A stretch of DNA of 64,000 nucleotides from an uncultured Bacteroidota bacterium (GTDB lineage Bacteria; Bacteroidota; Bacteroidia; Chitinophagales; Chitinophagaceae), in NCBI GenBank assembly GCA_903905065.1, contig CAIVEW010000070.1, positions 1-64,000 on the forward strand. Direction: 5' to 3'. Below the pieces are notes generated by a model that did no database searches, was not told the origin of the DNA, and saw nothing but the letters and a program-made list of their open reading frames with translations. The translations under genes and the position numbers were made by a program. Shown here one piece after another: positions 4,751 to 20,724 of the stretch. The first letter of the stretch is position 1, and each line of letters opens with the position of its first letter.

Positions 4751-5465
4751 TTATAGCCAAAGAGCGGCTATTGCAAATAAAAGTGCCGTTGTCATAATTA
4801 CGGAACCGAGCTTCAGGAAGGTCCATGCACTAACGGATTGCCCTTCGCGGCGCAACGCTACAGCCACAGTATGGTCGCAAGGGAGCCTGTGATAGAAAGA
4901 TTGGGTCCAAGGTCAACACCGATCAGGATGGCGCTTTTCACTATCGCAGGCTTACGCGTAGCCTGGACGGCATTAGCCGCAATGAGACCGACCGGCAGGT
5001 TATTCATCAGGTTGCTTGCAAAAGCAGCAATGAACCCGCTGCTCCATGCAGTCCCGGTCATTGAATGCGCCGCACTCTGGTAAAGCGATGTGGTGACGGA
5101 TCGTATCAGTCCGGTTTTATTGAGTGCCTCCACGGTCACAAACAGGCCTGCAACCAGCGGAACAACAGACCATGAAACTCCCTATATAACGATCATCGGA
5201 TTCCTTTTTCGACCGGATGATAACAACAGCAGACGTAAACAAACCTGTGACAGCAGTAGGCAATCCAAGCTGGATGTCAAGCGAGGAACATATAAGGAGG
5301 CTGACCGCTGTTGCCACAATGCCCGTGAGGGCTGACCTTCCGCCCTGCGAGAGCGTCGGTATTGGGATGTCAGTGCCGATCTTACCTTTCTGCAGATGTG
5401 TGAATGATGTAACTAATAGACCGATAGGTGTAATGTCCGGCTTTGTGGATCTGCTGACCTTTGCA
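4751..5465 (-). pseudogene. Decayed ArsB/NhaD-type membrane pump, C-terminal remnant
   Basis: On the minus strand, broken frames add up to the C-terminal part of an ArsB-like arsenite/anion pump. Segments include GVSWSVVPLVAGLFVTVEAL, SNLMNNLPVGLIA, ILIGVDLGPNLSITGSLATI and ALRREGQSVSAWTFLKLG. They lie in different frames. One slip is at the T5 run near 5205, an in-frame TAG is at 5182-5184, and a one-base loss is near 4856, just after LATILWL. The N-terminal half of a normal ~420-residue ArsB is missing. The remnant ends where the next plus-strand gene begins, so the 5' part was probably removed by a rearrangement. Confidence 0.75.
5398..5440 (+). promoter_or_regulatory. Possible degenerate copy of the BON-gene upstream element
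   Basis: The 22 bases from 5398 differ at two positions from the start of the element found before three BON genes (GTGTGAAAGGTGTAACTAAT plus AG). A GTGTAATG-TCCG stretch follows at 5427, resembling the distal part of that element, but the middle is about 50 bases shorter. It lies inside the arsB remnant and 64-106 bases upstream of the next gene's candidate starts. It could be a relic or a functional short version. Confidence 0.35.
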
Positions 5466-5503
5466 GGGTCATGAAAATTCATTCACGACCCAAAGTACAT
5501 ACA

Positions 5504-5962
5504 ATGGCCAAAGTAAATGTAAAACATCGCCCGCATGGCGAAGGTGTTAAATTGCTAGGTGCCCCTGCAGAACTGATCGACCTGATGATACCGGGCCCTA
5601 ATGAGCGCAAGGCAGCTATCAATGAGATAGATAATGAGGGGCCGATGCATAAGCAGGTATTCAGCGCATTGCTGCTTAACCGGCTCAACAAGATGGTCCA
5701 TATCATCCAAAAGAGCAGCGGCGCCAAGTTTGCCTTGCAGGAGGGCTATGAGCTGTTCAGGGAGCATGAGGGAAATGACGTGGCATTGTCTGTATCGGTG
5801 CCCATAAACGTGGGCACAGACCTGGAAAAGAAAGAGATCGCCGATGCCATCTCACACGCGCCTGAACATGAGGCACTGGTATACGCCATGTGCCTGCAGG
5901 CAATTGAATGGACGATCAAGGCAGCGGGCAGCAAGACAGACAACGATAAAGCGCCAAAGTAG
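5504..5962 (+). CDS. Conserved-looking hypothetical protein (152 aa)
   Basis: I do not recognise this family. The frame opens at ATG 5471, but the first 11 codons are of unlike composition and overlap the edge of the arsB remnant. ATG 5504 (MAKVNVKHRPHGEGVKLLG) looks like the natural start. The product is soluble, charged and mostly helical, with no signal peptide or membrane segment. Recognisable features are an LIDLMIPGPNERKAAINEID stretch near residues 25-45 and a Lys-rich tail. It precedes the BON/stress cluster in the same direction with a 60-base gap, so a stress role is possible by association only. Confidence 0.6.
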   Translation: MAKVNVKHRPHGEGVKLLGAPAELIDLMIPGPNERKAAINEIDNEGPMHKQVFSALLLNRLNKMVHIIQKSSGAKFALQEGYELFREHEGNDVALSVSVPINVGTDLEKKEIADAISHAPEHEALVYAMCLQAIEWTIKAAGSKTDNDKAPK

Positions 5963-6022
5963 TCGTAAGCGAATTTCACTACAGATAATTTTTCTGATCC
6001 TTAAATTCATTAAATCCAAAAC

Positions 6023-6688
6023 ATGAAAACAAACGAAGATCTGCAATACGATGTTGAACAAGCGATAAGGTGGGAGCCCCAGATCGACGCAGCACAGATC
6101 GGTGTAACCGCCAAAGACGGCGTGGTGACGCTTACAGGCACAGTAGACAGCTATTTTAAAAAGACAGAAGCCGAAAAGGCTGCTAAAAAGGTCGCAGGTA
6201 TCACAGCGTTGGTCGAAAATATCAAAATTGATTACGGTAGCTACTGGGATCAGAAAAATGACACCGAAATTGCTGCCGAGATACTGAATGCCTTTAAATG
6301 GCATACGGATGTTCCTGACGAAAAGCTGAAGGTAAGGGTGGAAAACGGATGGGTCACCCTCGACGGTGAACTTGGATGGAACTACCAGAAGGATGCAGCA
6401 AAAGATGCAGTGAAAAACCTTATGGGAGTGACGGGTGTTTCCAACGATATCAAGATCAAATCAGAAGTTGATGTAATCGAACTAAAGGATATTGTAGCTG
6501 CGATCAAACGTACTATATCTGGCGACAATCAGGACATAGAGGTCCGTGTTTCTGACAAAAACGTGCAACTGAAGGGACGAGTACATTCTTACTATGCAAA
6601 AGATGAAGCAGAAAGAATGGCCTGGAACACGCCAGGTGTTTCCACGGTAGATAACGAATTGATAATTGTAAACGACTACGCTGATTAG
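6023..6688 (+). CDS. Three-BON-domain protein, paralog 1
   Basis: 221 residues made almost wholly of three BON domains at about 3-70, 78-146 and 153-219. Each has the VTAKDGVVTLTG or [12 protein letters not shown] core. BON domains bind membranes or phospholipid and occur in OsmY-type stress proteins. OsmY is periplasmic, yet no signal peptide is visible here, so a cytoplasmic location is implied. This is the most divergent of the four copies in the window and the only one without the shared ~105-bp upstream element. A terminator-like hairpin follows at 6717. Confidence 0.85.
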   Translation: MKTNEDLQYDVEQAIRWEPQIDAAQIGVTAKDGVVTLTGTVDSYFKKTEAEKAAKKVAGITALVENIKIDYGSYWDQKNDTEIAAEILNAFKWHTDVPDEKLKVRVENGWVTLDGELGWNYQKDAAKDAVKNLMGVTGVSNDIKIKSEVDVIELKDIVAAIKRTISGDNQDIEVRVSDKNVQLKGRVHSYYAKDEAERMAWNTPGVSTVDNELIIVNDYAD

Positions 6689-6716
6689 TTAATCAGTGGT
6701 AATAGGAACTTCCGCG

Positions 6717-6763
6717 AAACGGGCAGAGACTGTCCAGAAAAGGGATGGTTTCTGCCTGTTTCA
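6717..6763 (+). terminator. Hairpin after BON paralog 1
   Basis: AACGGGCAGA (6718) pairs with TCTGCCTGTT (6751-6760), with further pairing inside around an A-rich loop. It stands 30 bases after the stop. The T-tract is weak, so efficiency is uncertain. Confidence 0.5.
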
Positions 6764-6790
6764 TTTACCCACTCGGAAGGCTATTCCAAT

Positions 6791-6894
6791 GTGTGAAAGG
6801 TGTAACTAATACATGTTGTGGTATAACATTAAATTTTAGGACTGCGTAGACCTTTGCACTTGTAATGATTCCGTTACAGCAAAACTGATTTCAT
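6791..6894 (+). promoter_or_regulatory. BON-gene upstream element, copy A
   Basis: This 104-base block ends at the ATG of BON paralog 2 and shares its framework with copies B (11014) and C (11933). It begins GTGTGAAAGGTGTAACTAAT. Near the middle is a TAACA(C/T)TTA-like motif, then CCTTT(A/G)C, then TGTAATGATTCCGTTAC shortly before the start codon. The motifs keep their spacing while the bases between differ, as expected for a promoter with operator sites. The last motif is an imperfect palindrome with GTAA and TTAC ends. Confidence 0.7.
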
Positions 6895-7563
6895 ATGAAG
6901 ACAAATGCAGAATTACAGAGAGACGTTCAGGATGCGATCAAATGGGAACCACTGCTCAATGCAGCGGAAATAGGCGTTACCGCTAAGGATGGCATTGTTT
7001 CTCTTACAGGTGTGGTGGATAACTACGCTAAGAAACTGGAAGCTGAAAACGCTGCCAAAAGAGTAATTGGCGTAAAAGCACTTGTTGAAAAAATAGAAGT
7101 GAAAATACCAAATTCATGGACAAAGACAAATGCAGAAATCGCTAAAGAAGTTACTAATGCACTAGAGTCTAACTGGTCGGTGCCTAGCGACAAAGTAAAA
7201 GTGGAGGTTGAGGATGGTTGGGTGACCTTGGAAGGCGAACTTCCCTGGAACTACCAGAAGGAAGCAGCAAAAAGTGCCGTTAATTACCTTACCGGTGTAA
7301 AAGGAGTATTCAACAACATTACAATCAAATCGGACACCCAGGATGCGATTGAAAAGGAAAATGTAGTCGATGCGATAGCCAGAAGTTGGTCTGTAGATGA
7401 TAGCGATATTAATGTGTCCGTTTCCGGTACCACTGTTACTTTAAGCGGAACGGTAGATTCCTGGTATCAAAAAGAAGAGGCTGATCGCATTGCCTGGAAA
7501 ACTCCGGGTATTTGTAATGTAAAAAATGAGCTCGCCGTTGACTATGAATATGCTTTTGATTAA
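6895..7563 (+). CDS. Three-BON-domain protein, paralog 2
   Basis: 222 residues with three BON domains and no signal peptide. It is very close to the copy at 11119; both contain [28 protein letters not shown] and SVDDSDI or SIDDSDI. The family binds membrane or lipid surfaces and is often induced by osmotic or envelope stress; the exact function is not known. It has its own upstream element (copy A). The dehydrogenase gene follows after 29 bases and may be co-transcribed. Confidence 0.85.
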   Translation: MKTNAELQRDVQDAIKWEPLLNAAEIGVTAKDGIVSLTGVVDNYAKKLEAENAAKRVIGVKALVEKIEVKIPNSWTKTNAEIAKEVTNALESNWSVPSDKVKVEVEDGWVTLEGELPWNYQKEAAKSAVNYLTGVKGVFNNITIKSDTQDAIEKENVVDAIARSWSVDDSDINVSVSGTTVTLSGTVDSWYQKEEADRIAWKTPGICNVKNELAVDYEYAFD

Positions 7564-7592
7564 TCAATAATTCCTAATAAAATAGAATAAAC

Positions 7593-8975
7593 ATGATATT
7601 TCAAACAACCAATCCCGCAAACAATAAAGTAGTACAGTCTTTTGAAGAAATGACCGATGCTGTAGTTGACAATGCCGTTACCAAAGCAACAAATACATTT
7701 GATGAGTGGAAGAATACAGATTATAAAATACGGGCGCAACTACTGTATAAAGTAGCTGGCTTACTAAGGGCAAAAAAGAAAGAACTGGCAGAGATGATTA
7801 CTTTGGAAATGGGAAAACTCTTGTCTCATGCTGAAGGTGAAATAAAGCTAAGTGCAGAAATATTCGATTATTATGCCAAAAATGCAGAGACCTTTCTGGC
7901 TGACAAAGTACTCAATCCGGTACACGGAAAAGCATTTATAAGACATAGCCCTGTGGGCGTGCTTCTGGGAATACAACCCTGGAACTTCCCGTTTTACCAG
8001 GTAGCCCGTTTTGCTGCACCCAACGTTATGATTGGCAATGTGGTGTTGGTAAAACACGCTCCGAACGTACCGCAATGCGCTATAGCTATTGAGAAGATAT
8101 TTTTGGAAGCAGGAGCACCACTTGGGCTATATACCAATCTGCTTTTATCCAATCCAAGAACTACAGCGTTGGTTGCTGACAAAAGGATCAGAGGCGTATC
8201 GCTTACCGGCAGCGAAACCGCAGGTGCAAGTGTAGCTGCAGAAGCCGGCAAACATATTAAAAAGTCTGTGCTGGAACTAGGTGGCAGTGATGCTTTCATT
8301 ATACTGGATGATGCAGATATTGACAAAGCAGTAGAATGGGCGGTAGTAGGAAGAATAAACAACAACGGCCAATGTTGCGTAGCGTCTAAACGATTCATAG
8401 CAGTGGAGAGTATCGCGGATGCATTCCTGGAAAAATTTAAAAAGAGGCTAAGTGAACTGGTGATCGGGGACCCTATGGATGTGACTACAAATTTAGGCCC
8501 GCTTTGTACAGAGGCCGCGGCAGTGAAAATTGCAGACCAGGTTAAAAGGTGCGTAGCCGGAGGCGCAAAAATTCTATTGGGCGGCAAAAGAGTAGACAGA
8601 GCCGGAGCCTATATGGAAGCCACAATACTTACAAATGTATTAAAAGAGAATCCCGTTTTTTACGAAGAATTTTTTGGACCGGTTGCTCTTTTTTTTAAAG
8701 TAAAAAATGAGCAGGAAGCTATTGATTTAGCTAATGATTCCCCTTTCGGTTTAGGCGGGTCCATATTTACCCAGGACGTTGAAAGAGGCAAAAGGATTGC
8801 CGACAAGATCGATACCGGCATGGTGTTCATCAATCACCCCACATGGACACAAGCCGATTTGCCCTTTGGCGGCACTAAAGGTTCGGGTTATGGAAGGGAG
8901 ATGGCTGAGTTAGGCCTGGACGAATTTGTAAACAAAAAGCTGATCCGGATAAGTGAACTGAGTGATCCATTCTAA
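7593..8975 (+). CDS. NAD(P)-dependent succinate-semialdehyde dehydrogenase
   Basis: 460-residue aldehyde dehydrogenase of the shorter GabD/Sad type. Visible landmarks are the ILLGIQPWNFPFYQ-like substrate and cofactor segment (near 125), SLTGSETAG (NAD binding), LELGGSDAFII with the general-base Glu (near 229) and GQCCVASKRF with the catalytic Cys (near 260). It oxidises succinate semialdehyde, or related aldehydes, to the acid with NAD(P). Substrate cannot be fixed from sequence. The position among stress genes suggests aldehyde detoxification or GABA/succinate metabolism. The gene follows a BON gene at 29 bases. Confidence 0.85.
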   Translation: MIFQTTNPANNKVVQSFEEMTDAVVDNAVTKATNTFDEWKNTDYKIRAQLLYKVAGLLRAKKKELAEMITLEMGKLLSHAEGEIKLSAEIFDYYAKNAETFLADKVLNPVHGKAFIRHSPVGVLLGIQPWNFPFYQVARFAAPNVMIGNVVLVKHAPNVPQCAIAIEKIFLEAGAPLGLYTNLLLSNPRTTALVADKRIRGVSLTGSETAGASVAAEAGKHIKKSVLELGGSDAFIILDDADIDKAVEWAVVGRINNNGQCCVASKRFIAVESIADAFLEKFKKRLSELVIGDPMDVTTNLGPLCTEAAAVKIADQVKRCVAGGAKILLGGKRVDRAGAYMEATILTNVLKENPVFYEEFFGPVALFFKVKNEQEAIDLANDSPFGLGGSIFTQDVERGKRIADKIDTGMVFINHPTWTQADLPFGGTKGSGYGREMAELGLDEFVNKKLIRISELSDPF

Positions 8976-9061
8976 TACTATCTCGATACCCTAAAAAAAT
9001 CGCCTCTAATGAAAATTTCGGAAAAGGCAAATTTAATTCATATAGCACCAATATCCAGGTC

Positions 9062-9499
9062 ATGAACGATATCCATTATTATGAGGTTGATTTGCTTTGG
9101 AACTCAGGTACACAAGGCACGGTTAGCGCTTCAGGTATTACACCCGACATTGAGGTAGTAACGCCACCGGCATTCCCCAACGGCATAGCTGGCAAATGGA
9201 CTCCAGAGCACCTGTTTGTAGCGTCTGTAAACGCATGCCTCATGTCTACATTCATTTTAGTAGCCGGCAACTCTAAATTCGAGTACATCAACTTTGAATG
9301 CAGTGCTGTTGGCAAATTCGAGAACGTTGATGGCAAATTTTCGCTAACAGAGATCGTCCTTCGGCCTAAACTTACTATTCCCTATTTACAAGACGGAATC
9401 AAAGCAGAGCGGATACTTGAAATGAGCGAAAATGCCTGTGCCATCTCCAATTCACTAAAAACAAAAATAACACTGAAACCGAATATCGTTATCCAATAA
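9062..9499 (+). CDS. OsmC-family protein (peroxide/osmotic stress)
   Basis: 145 residues of OsmC/Ohr fold. Two conserved Cys stand in SVNACLMSTFILVA (near residue 60) and SENACAISNSLK (near 121), the positions of the reactive pair that reduces organic hydroperoxides in the family. The protein lacks a signal peptide. It lies 86 bases after the dehydrogenase, with other redox-stress genes around it. OsmC and Ohr cannot be separated with certainty here; the sequence is closer to the YhfA/OsmC-like group in length. Confidence 0.85.
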   Translation: MNDIHYYEVDLLWNSGTQGTVSASGITPDIEVVTPPAFPNGIAGKWTPEHLFVASVNACLMSTFILVAGNSKFEYINFECSAVGKFENVDGKFSLTEIVLRPKLTIPYLQDGIKAERILEMSENACAISNSLKTKITLKPNIVIQ

Positions 9500-9786
9500 G
9501 AATTCGGTAACACGTACCTATCCGCGCCTATATATAATTGCGAATAGCCTTACTGATTGCTTCATTGGAGTTATAGTTTCCTGCTTAAAAGAAAAACCGA
9601 AATGCAGATGAGATTTGGCTGGTACATCGGTTGCAATGTAGCAAAGGCACATCTAATGTCGTACACATCGCTGGTTGCTAAACTTAAGTTCTTCAGCATA
9701 GCTCAATTTACAGTTTCAGCGATGACATTAATGCTAAATATAACGGGTAAACATTCATTTAAATTTAAACACATAAAATTCGTATA
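9500..9786. other. Intergenic, 287 bases, no supported gene
   Basis: AT-rich stretch between osmC and the ene-reductase gene. A 76-codon frame from 9557 runs into the next ATG but has unlikely composition and no recognisable family. No clear hairpin or -7 box was found. It may hold the promoter of the downstream gene or a decayed gene. Confidence 0.4.
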
Positions 9787-10896
9787 ATGAAAACTTTCAC
9801 ATTGTTTACTTCTACTAAAGTTGGTGCAATTGACGTAACAAATCGAATAGTTATGGCACCCATGACCCGTTGCCGCGCGATCGACAATATCCCTAATAAG
9901 TTAATGGCAAAATACTACCAACAACGGTCTGCCGCCGGACTGATCATAACCGAAGGTACATCCCCCTCCCCTAATGGCCTGGGCTATGCACGTATTCCCG
10001 GTATTTTTACAGAATCCCAAATACTAGGTTGGAAAGAGATCACCTCGGGAGTGCATAAAAGTGGGGGGAAGATAATCGTACAACTGATGCATACAGGAAG
10101 GATCAGCAATATCCTGAATATGCCTATAGGCAGTGAGGTAGTAGCGCCTTCAGCTATAAAAGCCGCAGGCCAGATGTGGACAGATGCCAAAAGCATGCAG
10201 GATTATCCAACTCCCAAAGCAATGACAGCAGAAGATATCGTAACCACACAGGCCGAATATGTGACAGCAGCCAAAAATGCAATTGAAGCTGGATTTGATG
10301 GAGTGGAACTCCATGGTGCCAATGGCTACCTGCTTGAAGAATTTCTATCCCCTGCTACCAATGTACGCACTGACAAATATGATGGCAGTATTGAAAATCG
10401 CTGCCGGTTCGTAATAGAAGTGGCCTCAGCAGTCGCAGCCGCTATTGGAAAAAACCGAACAGGTATACGCATATCACCATATGGAGTAGCAGGTGATATG
10501 CCCGATTATCCGGAAATTGATGCCACCTATGACTACCTTTCAAAAGAACTTAACAAACTTGGGATTGCCTATATCCATATAGTTGACCACTCCGCAATGG
10601 GTGCCCCCACCGTGCCTATCCAAATTAAGCAGCTGATCCGCAAAAATTTCAAAAATACACTTATTATTTGTGGCGGTTATGACAAGGACAGTGCTGAAGC
10701 AGATCTGCAAAGTGGCTTGTGTGACCTGGTGGGCTTTGACCGACCATTTATCAACAACCCGGACCTCGTGCAGAGATTAGAATACAATCAGGAATTATCT
10801 CAAAACCTCAAGACAGAATTGTTCTACACGGCTGATGAACATGGCTATACCGACTATCCGAATTTCAAAGTGCCGGTCGTGCTTGAAATTCGGTAA
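9787..10896 (+). CDS. Alkene reductase, old yellow enzyme family
   Basis: 369-residue FMN enzyme of the NemA/OYE type. It begins with the usual MAPMTRCRA segment. The VELHGANGYLLEEFLSPATN segment near residues 175-195 carries the His-Asn pair that binds the substrate carbonyl or nitro group. CGGYD and LVGFDRPFINNPDL near the C-terminus bind the FMN phosphate. It reduces activated C=C bonds of enals, enones and nitro compounds with NADPH. The NADPH link fits the NADPH-producing operon further right. Position between OsmC and BON genes suggests defence against electrophiles. Confidence 0.9.
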   Translation: MKTFTLFTSTKVGAIDVTNRIVMAPMTRCRAIDNIPNKLMAKYYQQRSAAGLIITEGTSPSPNGLGYARIPGIFTESQILGWKEITSGVHKSGGKIIVQLMHTGRISNILNMPIGSEVVAPSAIKAAGQMWTDAKSMQDYPTPKAMTAEDIVTTQAEYVTAAKNAIEAGFDGVELHGANGYLLEEFLSPATNVRTDKYDGSIENRCRFVIEVASAVAAAIGKNRTGIRISPYGVAGDMPDYPEIDATYDYLSKELNKLGIAYIHIVDHSAMGAPTVPIQIKQLIRKNFKNTLIICGGYDKDSAEADLQSGLCDLVGFDRPFINNPDLVQRLEYNQELSQNLKTELFYTADEHGYTDYPNFKVPVVLEIR

Positions 10897-11013
10897 TGGA
10901 CTGTAGAGGCAATCGCTATATTTTCATCACTTGATTTAGTAAACTCACCTCAAATGATCCGCGACCATTATGAAATGACTGCTTTTATTTAACCGAAGGG
11001 TGTCAAGCGGAAT

Positions 11014-11118
11014 GTGTGAAAGGTGTAACTAATCACCACTCCTGTGTAACACTTAATCTATTAGATAGGGTCACCTTTACTCGTGTAATAATTCCATTAC
11101 AATAAAATTGAAAATACG
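11014..11118 (+). promoter_or_regulatory. BON-gene upstream element, copy B
   Basis: 105 bases directly before the ATG of BON paralog 3. It starts with the same 20 bases as copies A and C, then has GTGTAACACTTA, TAGGGTCACCTTTAC and TGTAATAATTCCATTAC at matching spacing. GTGAAAGGTG near the left end and CACCTTTAC near the right form a long-range inverted repeat. Copies B and C are more alike than either is to A. Confidence 0.7.
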
Positions 11119-11787
11119 ATGAAAAATAATGAAGAATTACAGAAGGACGTTCAGGATGCAATCAAATGGGAACCATTGCTGAACGCAGCAGAGATTGGCG
11201 TTACTGCCAAAGATGGCGTTGTTTCACTAACAGGTGTAGTGGATACCTATGCAAAGAAAATGGAAGCGGAAAGCGCAGCTAAAAGAGTAATTGGCGTAAA
11301 AGCGCTGGTTGAGAAAATTGAAGTGAAACTACCAAGTGCATGGACAAAGACCAATGCTGAAATTGCTAACGAAGTATTGGTTGCGCTAAAATCAAACTGG
11401 TCTGTGCCTGCCGACAAAGTAACTGTAAAAGTGGAAGATGGCTGGGTTACTTTAGACGGTGAATTGCCTTGGAATTATCAAAAGGAAGCTGCGAAAAGTG
11501 CAGTAAATTATCTTACCGGCGTTAAAGGTGTAACCAACAACATTAAAATCAAATCGGATATCCATGATGCGATTGAAAAGGAAGATGTTGTAGATGCAAT
11601 CGCAAGAAGCTGGTCAATTGACGACAGTGATATCAGCGTATCTGTATCTGGCACAAGTGTTACTTTAACAGGAACGGTAAATTCCTGGTATCAGAAAGAA
11701 GAAGCAGGGCGCATTGCATGGAAAACACCTGGCATTTGGAATGTAAAGAATGAATTAGCAGTTGACTATGAATATGCTTTTGATTAA
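11119..11787 (+). CDS. Three-BON-domain protein, paralog 3
   Basis: 222 residues, three BON domains, no signal peptide or membrane segment. It is nearly the same as paralog 2 over its whole length, so the two arose by a recent duplication that also copied the upstream element. The C-terminus WNVKNELAVDYEYAFD matches paralog 2 except at a residue or two. A strong terminator at 11861 separates it from paralog 4, so each gene appears to be its own unit. Confidence 0.85.
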   Translation: MKNNEELQKDVQDAIKWEPLLNAAEIGVTAKDGVVSLTGVVDTYAKKMEAESAAKRVIGVKALVEKIEVKLPSAWTKTNAEIANEVLVALKSNWSVPADKVTVKVEDGWVTLDGELPWNYQKEAAKSAVNYLTGVKGVTNNIKIKSDIHDAIEKEDVVDAIARSWSIDDSDISVSVSGTSVTLTGTVNSWYQKEEAGRIAWKTPGIWNVKNELAVDYEYAFD

Positions 11788-11860
11788 TAAATAATTTTTA
11801 AACGCCGGAAAGATTTTCGCGGTTAAGAATATATAGCAGGGTATAGGAGTAAATATACAG

Positions 11861-11897
11861 AGCAAGAGGCCATCCGGAAAAGTGATGGTCTCTTGCT
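11861..11897 (+). terminator. Terminator after BON paralog 3
   Basis: AGCAAGAGGCCATC at 11861 pairs with GATGGTCTCTTGCT at 11884, giving a 14-pair stem with one wobble. The loop is 9 bases. A short AT-rich stretch follows. Confidence 0.7.
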
Positions 11898-11932
11898 ATT
11901 TAAGCTATGTTCAGATTTGTTGGACTCACCAT

Positions 11933-12036
11933 GTGTGAAAGGTGTAACTAATAGCTACCTGCGTGTAACACTTAGGTTTCTGAATAGGGTCACCTTTACA
12001 CCTGTAATGATTCCGTTACGAAAAAATTAAAATTGT
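11933..12036 (+). promoter_or_regulatory. BON-gene upstream element, copy C
   Basis: 104 bases before the ATG of BON paralog 4. It has GTGTGAAAGGTGTAACTAAT, then CGTGTAACACTTAG, TAGGGTCACCTTTACAC and CTGTAATGATTCCGTTAC. The order and spacing match copies A and B. The repeated (T)GTAAC units suggest binding sites for one regulator or sigma factor. Confidence 0.7.
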
Positions 12037-12708
12037 ATGAAAACCAATGCAGAATTACAGAAAGACGTTCAGGATGCGATCAAGTGGGAGCCATTGCTGA
12101 ATGCAGCGGAGATAGGCGTAACTGCCAAGGACGGTATTGTCACGTTAACAGGAAGCGTTGACAGCTATGCGAAAAAATCAGAGGCTGAAAGTGCTGCTAA
12201 AAATGTAGCCGGCGTTAATGCCGTAGTAGAAAAGATAGAGATCAATTACAGTGGCTGGGGAACAACCAGTGACGGTGACATCGCCAAGGAAATCCTAAGC
12301 GCCTACAAATGGAATTTCCAGGTTCCTAATGATACAGTCAAGGTGAAGGTCGAGAATGGCTGGGTAACTCTCGAAGGAGAACTGAACTGGAACTACCAGC
12401 GTGACGCGGCAAAAGACGCTGTAAGCCACTTGAGCGGCGTTAAGGGTGTTACCAACAACCTGACGATAAAATCTGAAACACGGGATGCTGTCGAAAAGAA
12501 AGATATTGAAAGTGCAATTGCACGCAATTGGTCAATGACTGATGACGATATAACTGTGAAGGTTTCAGGTTCACGGGTTACTTTGACAGGCACGGTAGGC
12601 TCATGGTACCAGAAGGAAGAAGCAGGCCGGATAGCATGGAACGCTCCCGGTGTTGAAATGGTGGTAAATGACCTGGTAGTAGAATATGACTATGCACTGG
12701 TTGACTAA
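12037..12708 (+). CDS. Three-BON-domain protein, paralog 4
   Basis: 223 residues with three BON domains. The N-terminal domain is close to paralogs 2 and 3 ([20 protein letters not shown]), while the second ([20 protein letters not shown]) resembles paralog 1. This may be a recombinant or an older copy. No export signal is seen. It has element copy C upstream and a strong terminator directly after the stop, so it is probably transcribed alone. Confidence 0.85.
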
Positions 12709-12711
12709 TTC

Positions 12712-12742
12712 AAAAGCGGGAGTAAAAACTCCCGCTTTTTTA
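12712..12742 (+). terminator. Rho-independent terminator after BON paralog 4
   Basis: AAAAGCGGGAG (12712-12722) and CTCCCGCTTTT (12729-12739) form a perfect 11-pair stem with a TAAAAA loop, followed by TT. It lies 4 bases after the stop. Confidence 0.9.
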
Positions 12743-12772
12743 ATAAATATTTCATCCCCACAAAAGAAAATT

Positions 12773-13246
12773 ATGAAACCAAATATAGAAATATCAGACA
12801 GTCATTTGAAAGAAGTAGCGACGCTGCTCAACAAGCTGTTAGCGGATGAGTATGTGCTGTATACCAAGACCAAAAATGCGCATTGGAATATACAGGGACC
12901 AACTTTCATGGAGCTGCATGCATTTTTCCAAAGCCAGTACGAAACATTGGACATCATGGTTGACGACATTGCTGAGCGGGTTCGTTCCCTGGGTCATTTT
13001 GCACTTGGGTCACTGAAGAATTTCCTCAGCATAACTAGTATGCTGGAAAATGACGAAGACTTCGGTAACCAGAAGCAGATCATTCAAACATTGCTTAATG
13101 ACCACGAAACTATTGTCAGGATTATTAGGAATGACCTTGTTCCTGTTTCCGATAAGTATAAAGACCTTGGCACAACCGATTTTATTACAGGTGTAATGAA
13201 ACAGCATGAAAAAATGACCTGGATGCTTCGTGCCTATTTAGGATAG
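12773..13246 (+). CDS. dps: Dps-family ferritin-like protein
   Basis: 157 residues from ATG 12773; an earlier in-frame ATG at 12686 would overlap the BON gene and the terminator, so it is rejected. The ferroxidase signature is plain: KNAHWNIQGPTFMELHAFF supplies the His ligands near 33-45, and ETLDIMVDDIAERVRSLG supplies Asp and Glu near 58-68. Dps forms 12-mers that oxidise Fe(II) with peroxide and store it, protecting DNA in stress and stationary phase. Neighbours (OsmC, BON, YceI) fit that role. Basic N-terminal DNA-binding tail is short, so DNA binding is uncertain. Confidence 0.92.
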   Translation: MKPNIEISDSHLKEVATLLNKLLADEYVLYTKTKNAHWNIQGPTFMELHAFFQSQYETLDIMVDDIAERVRSLGHFALGSLKNFLSITSMLENDEDFGNQKQIIQTLLNDHETIVRIIRNDLVPVSDKYKDLGTTDFITGVMKQHEKMTWMLRAYLG

Positions 13247-13261
13247 GTAAAGGTAGCACGC

Positions 13262-13292
13262 AAACTACTAGTAAAATATTCTGAAACTACTA
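13262..13292 (+). promoter_or_regulatory. Direct repeat upstream of yceI-like gene
   Basis: AAACTACTA occurs at 13262-13270 and again at 13284-13292, 22 bases (two helical turns) apart and 18 bases before the ATG at 13311. This could be a paired activator site, but two 9-base repeats may be chance. Confidence 0.3.
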
Positions 13293-13310
13293 ATCAAAAA
13301 CCGAACAAAA

Positions 13311-13895
13311 ATGAAAAAATCAATTTCAGCCTTAGCCGTAATGATTCTATCCGCAATTTCAAGTTTCGGGCAGAAAACATATACTCTTGATAAGTACCAT
13401 TCAAAAGTTGGGTTTAGCGCGACGCACTTCGGAATCTCGCACGTCGAGGGAAGTTTCAAAATGATTGACGCTACACTTCAGGCAAAAAAGGCAGATTTAA
13501 CAGATGCTGACATTTCTTTCACTGCTGATGTCAATTCTATCAATACGGATGTTGAATACCGGGATAATGATTTGAAAAGTGCAAATTATTTTGATGCTGC
13601 CAAGTTTCCTGTAATAACTTTTAAGAGCAAGGCCTTCACCAAGGTAACTGGCAAAAAGTACAAATTGGTCGGTGAAATCACAATACATGGTGTTACAAAA
13701 CAAGTTGAATTTTCGGTTTTGTTCAATGGTGTCGCCGTAACAGCGATGAAAAAGCCAACCGCCGGCTTTACAATTACGGGAAAGATAAACCGACTTGATT
13801 TCGGCGTTGGCAGCGCTCCCGCGACAAGTGGCATCAGCAATGAAATAGAATTGAGATCCAATGTGGAGTTTACTATTGCAGATAATTCGAAATAG
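13311..13895 (+). CDS. YceI-family periplasmic protein
   Basis: 194 residues with a signal peptide (about 1-21, ending SSFGQ). The YceI lipocalin-like barrel follows: TYTLDKYHSKVGFSATHFG near the start, EYRDNDLKSANYFDAAKFPV near 80, and the GEITIHGVTKQVEF core near 120. The family binds isoprenoid-like or amphiphilic molecules in the periplasm and is often induced by stress or high pH; the exact role is unsettled. It is followed at 18 bases by a lipoprotein gene, so the two may be one unit. Confidence 0.9.
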   Translation: MKKSISALAVMILSAISSFGQKTYTLDKYHSKVGFSATHFGISHVEGSFKMIDATLQAKKADLTDADISFTADVNSINTDVEYRDNDLKSANYFDAAKFPVITFKSKAFTKVTGKKYKLVGEITIHGVTKQVEFSVLFNGVAVTAMKKPTAGFTITGKINRLDFGVGSAPATSGISNEIELRSNVEFTIADNSK

Positions 13896-19338: not shown

Positions 19339-20724
19339 TCATTGCTTCCATAGTATCTCAAGCTTTCCACTTGCCTTCAGGTAGTCAAGATAATACAACC
19401 AATACTGCTTTTTGTTACTTTGGTAGTCGGCATCAAGCTTCTGAAGGTCTGCTTCCTCTAAATTGAGATTGGACGACGATTCCTGCCCTTCCAATACACG
19501 TGCCTGAAAAATACCGATCGATTCGCTGCTTAACGCCATATTTTCTTCCTGCACTTTCAATGCATATAGTACCTGTTCCATTCTGATCTTTGCAATAAGT
19601 CCATCCTTGAAGTACTGAGCAGCCTTGTCATCTTTCTGCTGGTAATATTGGCTGGATTGCAACTGTAGTTGTTGCAATTTCTTGTGTTTATCCTCTCCGA
19701 ATAGCAGTGGATATTTCAAATCGATTCCAACGTAACTTAGGCCAAACCACGAATTTGCGGCAAACGGATCGAAATTGTTTGCATACTGATTAGCACCGAT
19801 AAAGCCTTTAACGCCTAAAGTGGGCAGATACTTAGCCTTTTCTGTTTTTTTTTGTACATCTGTAAGATCTCCTTTAAGTTGTAATTGTTGTATTTCAGGA
19901 ATATTGGAAACATTGGGTTGCACATTCTCATTCGTTAATCTCTCATTTTTTAAGAAGGCAGTATCAATAATAATGTCCGGGTGTTCGATATCGTTTCTCC
20001 CTATTAAGAATAATAGGTAGACCTTATCTTCTATCAATTGTGAGACTGCGCTTCTATATTGCTGTATAGCATTATTATGATTGATCTTAGCCTTATTAAG
20101 TTCTGACTTCAGTAGTCTTTTTTGCTCAAATTTATTCTCCAACAATTGGTAACTGATCCATGTTCTGCTGCTGTCTGCAATGGCTGATCTGATCTTAGCA
20201 TCCTGCAAATTGATGTCCATATATACCTGCGCTACTGTATAAGCGAGGTCATATTCAGTTTGGGCTTGTGAGGCCGCTGTTATACGTTCCTGCAATTTGG
20301 CTTCGTTGATCTGCCTGTTTACAGACACGTCAAATAAGGGCTGGTATAGCGTCAGACCAGCTGTTTGCGACCATTTTGTACCGAATTGAATACTTTTAGT
20401 CGCGTCAGCGGGGTAAGATGGATTAAATATCCCAATTGGAAGGATAGAAGTTTGCAAAATGGGATTGTAGAGATACGTGTATTCTACATTTACCTGTGGC
20501 CAATATTTCCGGTACAAAGCGTCCGTTTGTAGCTTACGGATCACTTGGTCTGATTTTCCAGCTTGTATATTCTTCCTGTTTGCCATAGCATTGTTTATCG
20601 CTTCCGATAACGTTAATCTCTCCTGCGCCTGCACGGAATACTGTATCGCGAAAAGTAAGACAATTGCTATGGACCAACGACGAGCCGCATGACACATATT
20701 AATCCAATGATGTTCATTATTCAT
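19339..20724 (-). CDS. TolC-family outer-membrane efflux protein
   Basis: 461 residues with a signal peptide (cleavage near QAQE at about 34). LTLSEAINNAMANRKNIQAG opens a typical outer-membrane efflux domain, followed by long coiled-coil helices and a second repeat from about residue 260 (YLPTLGVKGFIGANQY). It forms the outer-membrane channel of a tripartite pump. It is the last gene of an ATPase, adaptor, permease, TolC set, 18 bases after the permease. Confidence 0.9.
   Translation of the reverse strand: MNNEHHWINMCHAARRWSIAIVLLFAIQYSVQAQERLTLSEAINNAMANRKNIQAGKSDQVIRKLQTDALYRKYWPQVNVEYTYLYNPILQTSILPIGIFNPSYPADATKSIQFGTKWSQTAGLTLYQPLFDVSVNRQINEAKLQERITAASQAQTEYDLAYTVAQVYMDINLQDAKIRSAIADSSRTWISYQLLENKFEQKRLLKSELNKAKINHNNAIQQYRSAVSQLIEDKVYLLFLIGRNDIEHPDIIIDTAFLKNERLTNENVQPNVSNIPEIQQLQLKGDLTDVQKKTEKAKYLPTLGVKGFIGANQYANNFDPFAANSWFGLSYVGIDLKYPLLFGEDKHKKLQQLQLQSSQYYQQKDDKAAQYFKDGLIAKIRMEQVLYALKVQEENMALSSESIGIFQARVLEGQESSSNLNLEEADLQKLDADYQSNKKQYWLYYLDYLKASGKLEILWKQ

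Follow-up and report, generated by a model that had tools for sequence, protein, structure and literature searches.

A composite stress-gene promoter shared by many Bacteroidota, with a candidate AraC-type activator and a probable leader hairpin

Promoters of the AraC/XylS class-II type, such as araI1-I2, carry two direct-repeat sites of which the second lies over the −35 region, and direct repeats at 21 bp are a layout typical of AraC-type activator sites. Dispersed stress genes are controlled elsewhere by the AraC-type proteins MarA, SoxS and Rob, and in the general stress regulons of SigB and RpoS, to which CsbD and OsmY respectively are linked. To our knowledge Bacteroidota have neither SigB nor RpoS and their general stress response is poorly known; in the titles and abstracts that we found, no regulator was assigned to the CsbD, BON, Dps or Usp-type genes of this phylum. 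PMC7366714 gives TAnnTTTG at −7 as the promoter consensus of the Bacteroidota housekeeping sigma factor, and describes many ECF factors and mRNAs that have no Shine-Dalgarno sequences.

Here we describe an element present in four copies in the window (the whole 64,000-nt stretch of DNA that was analysed, from an uncultured member of the Chitinophagaceae) which shares features with each of these systems. It resembles AraC/XylS class-II promoters in its pair of direct repeats at a 21-bp offset, of which the downstream one would lie over the −35 region, and in the AraC double HTH of the candidate activator, but the element also has a Bacteroidota-type −7-like box and a leader hairpin, the N-domain of the candidate is HMA-like rather than cupin-like, and the genes are dispersed stress genes and not a sugar operon. 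With the MarA/SoxS/Rob regulons it has in common an AraC-type protein (here a candidate) whose predicted DNA-binding fold matches those of SoxS, MarA and Rob, together with dispersed stress genes; it differs in having two repeated sites per promoter and in phylum, motif and N-domain. CsbD- and OsmY/BON-type targets, with Dps-like and Usp-type genes near elements, are shared with the SigB and RpoS regulons, although no alternative sigma factor is implicated here. The hairpin is predicted at or near the mRNA 5′ end, as are the ompA-type 5′ stabilizing stem-loops, but here the loop is conserved, the stem covaries and a distance of 14–18 nt to the AUG recurs across many genes.

The first-pass annotation of the window had described ~105-bp blocks before three of four BON genes, and we confirm that these start at 6791, 11014 and 11933 and extend as far as the ATGs at 6895, 11119 and 12037. 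The observation is real and larger than first described: the pattern is not confined to these three genes, a fourth copy lying within the window at 5398, before an unrelated gene (5504–5962). The features are as follows.

5398–5417, + strand, element A box 1, putative activator site 1, GTGTGAATGATGTAACTAAT
5429–5435, + strand, element A box 2, putative activator site 2 over the −33 region, TGTAATG
5456–5463, + strand, element A box 3, −7-like box, GACCTTTG
5470–5487, + strand, element A leader hairpin, CATGAAAATTCATTCACG
5504–5962, + strand, gene A, 152 aa, without a match in Pfam or NCBIfam
6023–6688, + strand, BON gene 1 with three BON stretches, lacking its own element and perhaps cotranscribed with gene A
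6791–6810, + strand, element B box 1
6822–6828, + strand, element B box 2, TATAACA
6849–6856, + strand, element B box 3, GACCTTTG
6861–6878, + strand, element B leader hairpin, TGTAATGATTCCGTTACA
6895–7563, + strand, BON gene 2
11014–11033, + strand, element C box 1
11045–11051, + strand, element C box 2, TGTAACA
11072–11079, + strand, element C box 3, CACCTTTA
11084–11101, + strand, element C leader hairpin, TGTAATAATTCCATTACA
11119–11787, + strand, BON gene 3
11933–11952, + strand, element D box 1
11964–11970, + strand, element D box 2, TGTAACA
11991–11998, + strand, element D box 3, CACCTTTA
12003–12020, + strand, element D leader hairpin, TGTAATGATTCCGTTACG
12037–12708, + strand, BON gene 4

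For gene A we prefer an ATG at 5504, which leaves 16 nt between it and the hairpin, to a longer frame from 5471, and the hairpin-to-ATG spacing may be of use in correcting gene starts such as this one. BON gene 1 has no block of its own; because it starts 60 bp behind gene A it is possibly under element A, and the two genes may share a promoter.

Comparison of the blocks at 6791, 11014 and 11933 separates the motifs from their surroundings. The 20-mer GTGTGAAAGGTGTAACTAAT is identical in all three, and none of 100 shuffles gave a match to it with three or fewer mismatches. Boxes 1–3 agree in 104 of 108 pairwise comparisons and the hairpin region in 49 of 60, as against 40 of 99 in the filler between motifs and 50 of 180 in the 60 nt upstream of the blocks. 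When the genes that follow are compared over their first 180 nt, 32–40 of 60 third codon positions are identical. The earlier statement that motifs are kept and filler is not is thus borne out. The BON genes are paralogues and the shared blocks might be leftovers of their recent duplication, but this reading has next to no chance of being correct and was rejected on the divergence of the filler relative to the boxes and because the element also stands in front of unrelated genes, both here and in other genomes. A scan of the genome, which the annotation had proposed together with the comparison of filler, yielded a fifth copy at G000:C83:2336 and a sixth at G000:C22:1135-1222, both outside the window. 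Together with the low conservation of filler among the three blocks, this goes against the outcome that would have refuted the annotation. Protein binding, favoured there over recent copying, is likewise supported by the same architecture, with filler that is not conserved, before unrelated genes in many genomes.

The block is one copy of a composite stress-gene promoter that occurs in many Bacteroidota. A profile search of 294 genomes of the family gave matches in 134 at E≤0.01, where about 3 are expected, and in 86 at E≤1e-4 (the clear element genomes below); the best 14 candidates per genome were scored, so that copy numbers are lower bounds. The exact three-box pattern is present in at least 119 stretches of named genomes, and 79 of the 80 among them whose titles were examined are from Bacteroidota. 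The genes downstream are diverse and many are of stress type (CsbD, BON). One supposed copy, L008, was removed before alignment, the match lying inside a BON coding frame (GVKGVTN). We found no published description of the element in a search that did not extend to subscription papers and preprints, so that its absence from the literature is unproven; judged by title and abstract, none of the papers listed is about it, including 12 of the 110 that contain one of three 10-mers.

The geometry of the element was derived from 12 seed copies and then from 148 copies. Box 2 repeats box 1 in direct orientation at an offset of 21 bp, the best of all offsets from 5 to 74 (136 non-seed copies; column-shuffle p 0.0015), with a score of −3.8 against −14.4 for the best inverted match; the likeness lies mainly in the right half-site, the score over the full site itself being negative, and 1 of 2000 control shuffles scored above 1. 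Box 3 has the consensus CA[CT]CTTT[GA] and resembles the Bacteroidota −7 box: measured against TAnnTTTG, the 148 copies keep the A in 134, the three Ts in 144, 147 and 131 and the G in 87, and the first T in only 16. If box 3 is the −7 box, box 2, which ends about 20 bp before it, covers the −33 region. A −7-like box, which the first-pass annotation had failed to see, is hence present and coincides with that annotation's own (T/A)CCTTT(A/G)C motif.

The annotation had on this account suggested an ECF-type sigma factor, a suggestion that finds no support in the commonest form of box 3, CACCTTTG, with five of the six fixed bases of TAnnTTTG. ECF promoters have an AAC motif at −35, usually 16–17 bp from the −10. 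An ECF or other alternative sigma factor would have to read box 2 as its −35 and box 3 as its −10, and it is very improbable that one does so: the gap of about 20 bp is longer than usual, box 3 resembles the housekeeping −7 box, and the best conserved part of the element, box 1, begins 58 bp ahead of box 3, much too far upstream for a −35 element, and forms direct repeats with box 2, notwithstanding the conserved spacing of boxes 2 and 3 and the richness of the phylum in ECF factors reported in PMC7366714. A sigma-54 site was rejected, since GG is missing at the distance from box 3 that corresponds to −24, as was base pairing between boxes 1 and 3 (AAAGGT/ACCTTT), which is feasible in the BON copies only and not in copies with TGAATGATG.

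A short hairpin follows the promoter, 2–4 nt downstream of box 3, in 65 of the 148 copies, the remaining 83 having no good hairpin; among the 86 elements of the set found by pattern across the phylum, 19 have an anchored one. Its stem is GTGAA/TTCAC or GTAAC/GTTAC with a loop that is often AATTC, and it ends 14–18 nt before the ATG in 50 of 64 copies, the leader length being 98–112 in 54 of 64 hairpin copies versus 19 of 77 others. Seventy of the 148 copies could be anchored and 59 distinct ones, misfits included, were kept for alignment. In these, 89% of cells are paired compared with 72.8% in shuffles, double changes number 62 versus 24, and covariation is 0.491 versus 0.198 (0 of 500 shuffles as high; slid controls 0.019–0.164), while the number of pairs with a double change (4 versus 3.9) shows no excess.

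The sequence TGTAAT(G/A)ATTCC(G/A)TTAC, which the annotation had taken for part of a protein-binding pattern, thus holds as a conserved motif but is better read as a hairpin, probably a leader element of the RNA. That the dyad is instead a DNA operator for a dimeric protein is unlikely. Its half-sites TGTGAA and TGTAAC do resemble boxes 1 and 2, and box 2 and the dyad are both near the expected transcription start; however, the stem pairs covary and most copies retain the off-centre loop AATTC, departures at stem pairs 4–6 are G-T in 23 cases and A-C in 5 (related copies not being independent), which a DNA dyad would not favour, and only copies with the hairpin have a near-constant distance to the ATG. 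CRP-like and Rex-like readings of the dyad were rejected, as their consensus sites have different spacers. An Rfam scan of positions 5000–13000 of the window returned two matches, both outside the elements and scoring far under the gathering thresholds. The hairpin pattern matched five places in the genome (one in the control), of which three are known elements and two (C47, C68) have a stem broken by a mismatch.

The candidate regulator is an AraC-type protein of ~186 aa, with an HMA-like N-domain and a double HTH like that of MarA and SoxS, whose representative in this genome scores 54.7 bits against Pfam HTH_18 (cutoff 33.6). A ferredoxin-like fold is predicted for the N-domain, with weak matches to GolB, Atx1 and CopZ (E 0.16–0.4); it has no Pfam HMA match, and only one cysteine is invariant, as against the CxxC motif of HMA domains.

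Of the gene families that recur in 20 clusters chosen for their elements, the AraC type is the most frequent (13 of 20, one as broken pieces only). When 150 listed elements were compared with the best 111 AraC matches (down to about E 1.5e-78), 68 had such a match no more than 10 kb away, where 1–2 would be expected. Close matches (E≤1e-85) are present in 56 of the 86 clear element genomes, compared with 13 of the 48 whose element match is weak and 9 of the 160 that have none. As the AraC profile was built from element clusters, co-occurrence within the family is partly circular; cleaner tests are the presence of an element (E≤0.001) within ~1.5 kb of 16 of the 21 best AraC loci outside the profile-source genomes (22 of 30 overall) and of an AraC gene in 20 of the 119 loci identified solely by their DNA pattern (14 of 80 in an earlier subset), all such counts ignoring kinship. 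Among 71 AraC genes, taken partly from loci chosen for elements and scored with a matrix built from the elements of the same loci, 35 have an element right after the stop codon, 25 of them in one exact register, and in 14 an element would be the gene's own promoter. In the present genome both AraC genes are beside elements outside the window: C22:1220-1777 abuts the element at C22:1135-1222 and C83:6-446 is 1.9 kb from that at C83:2336.

The candidate does not accompany every element. No AraC gene was found at E≤1e-25 in 12 of the 86 clear element genomes, and a second search of 11 of them, at E≤1e-10, brought up only generic HTH matches (~43–50 bits) in nine and nothing in the other two; these genomes include all 4 sampled g25 and all 3 g115 genomes with elements, and several are 97–100% complete. 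Conversely, the gene is also present in 145 of the 208 family genomes that have no clear element (E≤1e-25) and in 112 of 274 such genomes from the phylum (E≤1e-40). There is none in the window, and only 4 of 29 best-element loci have one within 1.5 kb. It is therefore conceivable, though rather doubtful, that a different, more widespread regulator is responsible, such as a response regulator, LytTR or otherwise, linked to the kinases in the clusters, and that the AraC gene is no more than a frequent regulon member or neighbour. Besides the genomes just described, three distant ones (G372, G377 and G545) have elements and no AraC match at E≤1e-40, histidine kinases (10 of 20 loci) and receiver proteins recur in the clusters, and LytTR sites are also direct repeats, some 21–22 bp apart. 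Yet AraC is the only recognised DNA-binding type, by eye and Pfam, among families present in at least 3 of the 20 cluster loci, NtrC-type proteins being found in just 2, and its linkage to the element holds outside the family too (G583, G463, G451, G429 and G389). By eye, no regulator was recognised near elements of the genomes that lack the AraC gene (g25, g115 and two others; L137–L142).

We propose, with a probability of about 0.63, that the element is a stress-gene promoter under class-II activation by the HMA-like AraC-type protein, to which a leader hairpin is added. In this model the activator would bind the two direct repeats, the second of which would cover the −33 region otherwise needed by the housekeeping sigma factor, and would recruit RNA polymerase to the −7-like box; the start of transcription would coincide with the hairpin or slightly precede it, and the hairpin probably stabilizes the mRNA or aids the choice of start codon, and the regulon would be induced by stress.

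With an element so sharp and searchable, the regulon can be listed in any genome, and the model names a regulator that can be tested. A hairpin at a near-constant distance from the AUG also makes it testable whether structure aids start-site choice where Shine-Dalgarno sequences are lacking. More tentatively, and with somewhat less than an even chance, much of the Bacteroidota may share a stress regulon under an HMA-fold AraC activator, autoregulated in some genomes, in which the 5′-terminal hairpin 14–18 nt before the AUG would be a translation or stability module.

The three blocks that the first-pass annotation reported before BON genes (at 6791, 11014 and 11933) are present as it described them, each comprising four parts in fixed order, listed here by their offset from the first base of box 1:

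Box 1, offset 0: GTGTGAAnGnTGTAACTAAT
Box 2, offset 31: TGTAACA or a near variant
Box 3, offset 58: usually [CGT]ACCTTT[GA]
Dyad, starting at offset 68–73 in most copies and ending near the start codon

There is a fourth copy at 5398, upstream of a gene that has no Pfam or NCBIfam match, and at the edge of open frames on the minus strand (4858–5482) that we take to resemble a decayed ArsB-type permease. The fifth, in another contig of the same genome, is preceded by a Usp-type gene and followed by a gene for a protein resembling the product of the gene at the 5398 copy. A sixth, in a third contig, was found by scanning the genome with R1, a sequence-only model built from 12 copies (five from this genome and seven from four relatives); the next four matches are weak (E 0.09 and above).

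A pattern search of 99 genomes with one mismatch allowed matched at 13 places in six genomes, five of these places being in this genome; the reversed-pattern control matched at one. One of the 13, L008, was dropped as a coding coincidence: codons for the BON peptide GVKGVTN can come close to the sequence of box 1, as at L008:1501–1520, and scans should guard against such chance matches. With R1, 134 of 294 family genomes have a match at E ≤ 0.01, where about 3 are expected by chance, and 86 have one at E ≤ 1e-4; in the phylum sample 22 of 296 genomes match at E ≤ 0.001. A pattern of about 24 fixed bases occurs in at least 119 stretches among 84,980 named genomes, and 79 of the 80 titles among the matches listed are of Bacteroidota groups (Bacteroidales, flavobacteria, Saprospiraceae, Chitinophagaceae, Emticicia and others). 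The remaining title, L215 (JAGXGG010000009.1), is Ignavibacteriota, which may reflect transfer or misbinning.

The profile of 148 copies collected at E ≤ 0.001 from 65 fetched sources has three sharp boxes and near-random filler, bearing out the earlier claim that motifs are conserved and filler is not; the putative protein binding proposed with it is upheld too. The same annotation saw no box like the −7 TAnnTTTG, which is incorrect, as box 3 fits this box in the profile except at its first base, and the ECF-type sigma factor it suggested is disfavoured. If box 3 is the −7 box, then box 2 lies over −33, and we infer that the −33 element is missing and that the promoter is an activated one.

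An open reading frame of at least 45 codons starts downstream of 141 of the 148 copies, most commonly at +100 to +109 (66 copies). The downstream families differ: CsbD-like (25 copies; one member confirmed as PF05532), a His-rich family that is presumably LEA-like (14), a secreted-protein family that we take to be DUF3494-like (8), BON (4), besides numerous small groups and singletons. At L055:7807–7883 (minus strand) the element precedes a gene that looks to us like rpoN (sigma-54), and NtrC-type activator genes occur in two clusters, L054 and L055, making a cascade possible. Within the window, BON gene 4 is followed by Dps-like (Ferritin domain) and YceI genes (12773–13895), for which no element of their own was found at the R1 limits used. 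A long run at 19339–52007 places sugar-phosphate and fermentation genes (by eye phosphoketolase-, transketolase- and acetate kinase-like) beside stress genes.

An anchored dyad is found in 70 of the 148 copies, with a good stem in 65. Among 59 distinct dyad sequences 89% of cells pair versus 72.8% when shuffled, and double changes number 62 versus 24; the count of pairs showing a double change is not above shuffles. Stem pair 4 is G-C in 35 of 70 and A-T in 27, and at pairs 4–6 wobble pairs outnumber A-C mismatches by 23 to 5. The hairpin starts 2–4 nt after box 3 (55/65) and ends 14–18 nt before the ATG (50/64); leaders are 98–112 long in 54 of 64 hairpin copies versus 19 of 77 hairpin-free copies, which have no fixed leader length. 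By downstream family, it is present in 14/14 LEA-like, 15/25 CsbD-like and 0/5 members of a family we take to be cupin-like. The dyad is thus a detachable, leader-associated module whose best interpretation is a predicted RNA hairpin. At 5471–5504 the automatic start, ATG 5471, falls inside the hairpin of the 5398 copy, and the 14–18-nt spacer rule points to ATG 5504.

In 20 regions selected for two or more elements each, the gene family that recurs most often encodes AraC-type proteins about 186 aa long (13/20, one as broken pieces only), with Pfam matches to HTH_18/HTH_AraC. For the own-genome copy, structure prediction (pLDDT 88.9) gives a C-domain like YesN, SoxS and MarA and a beta-alpha-beta-beta-alpha-beta N-domain, whose structure matches are weak (GolB, Atx1, CopZ; E 0.16–0.4). 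A 26-row alignment has one invariant cysteine in the N-terminal part, residue C13 in the own protein; the other CxxC position is serine in this protein and several more. The repeat shared by boxes 1 and 2 has an offset of 21 bp and is clear in the right half-site, weak in the left.

One of the best 111 AraC matches (down to about E 1.5e-78) lies within 10 kb of 68 of 150 listed elements (37 of 60 genomes), and an element is near 22 of 30 AraC loci (16 of 21 independent loci). Among the 119 loci listed for the pattern, together 877 kb, 20 contain an AraC-type gene, and one lies within 1.5 kb at 4 of 29 best-element loci. The element directly follows the stop in 35 of 71 AraC genes and occupies the gene's own promoter region in 14. 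In 25 of those 35 (L089:1217–1828 and 24 others) the stop TGA doubles as the TGA of box 1 (gTGTGAA), always in one register, so that the element overlaps the gene end.

Across the family, AraC matches at E ≤ 1e-85 occur in 56 of 86 clear-element, 13 of 48 weak-element and 9 of 160 element-free genomes, and at the loose limit of 1e-25 in 74 of 86 clear-element versus 145 of 208 other genomes; in the phylum sample they occur in 19 of 22 element genomes versus 112 of 274 others at E ≤ 1e-40 and in 12 of 22 versus 9 of 274 at E ≤ 1e-85 (all raw counts, kinship ignored). No such gene is found at 1e-25 in 12 of the 86 clear-element family genomes, including the sampled element genomes of genera g25 and g115, and a re-search of 11 of these gave nothing above about 50 bits; three element-bearing phylum genomes (G372, G377, G545) have no AraC match at 1e-40. 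The AraC type is therefore the best candidate, a putative regulator, and some element lineages must use another regulator or a form so diverged that the profile misses it.

No description of this element was found in the literature searched. It is a real and widespread stress-gene promoter, likely regulated by the candidate AraC protein, and its predicted leader hairpin probably acts as RNA.
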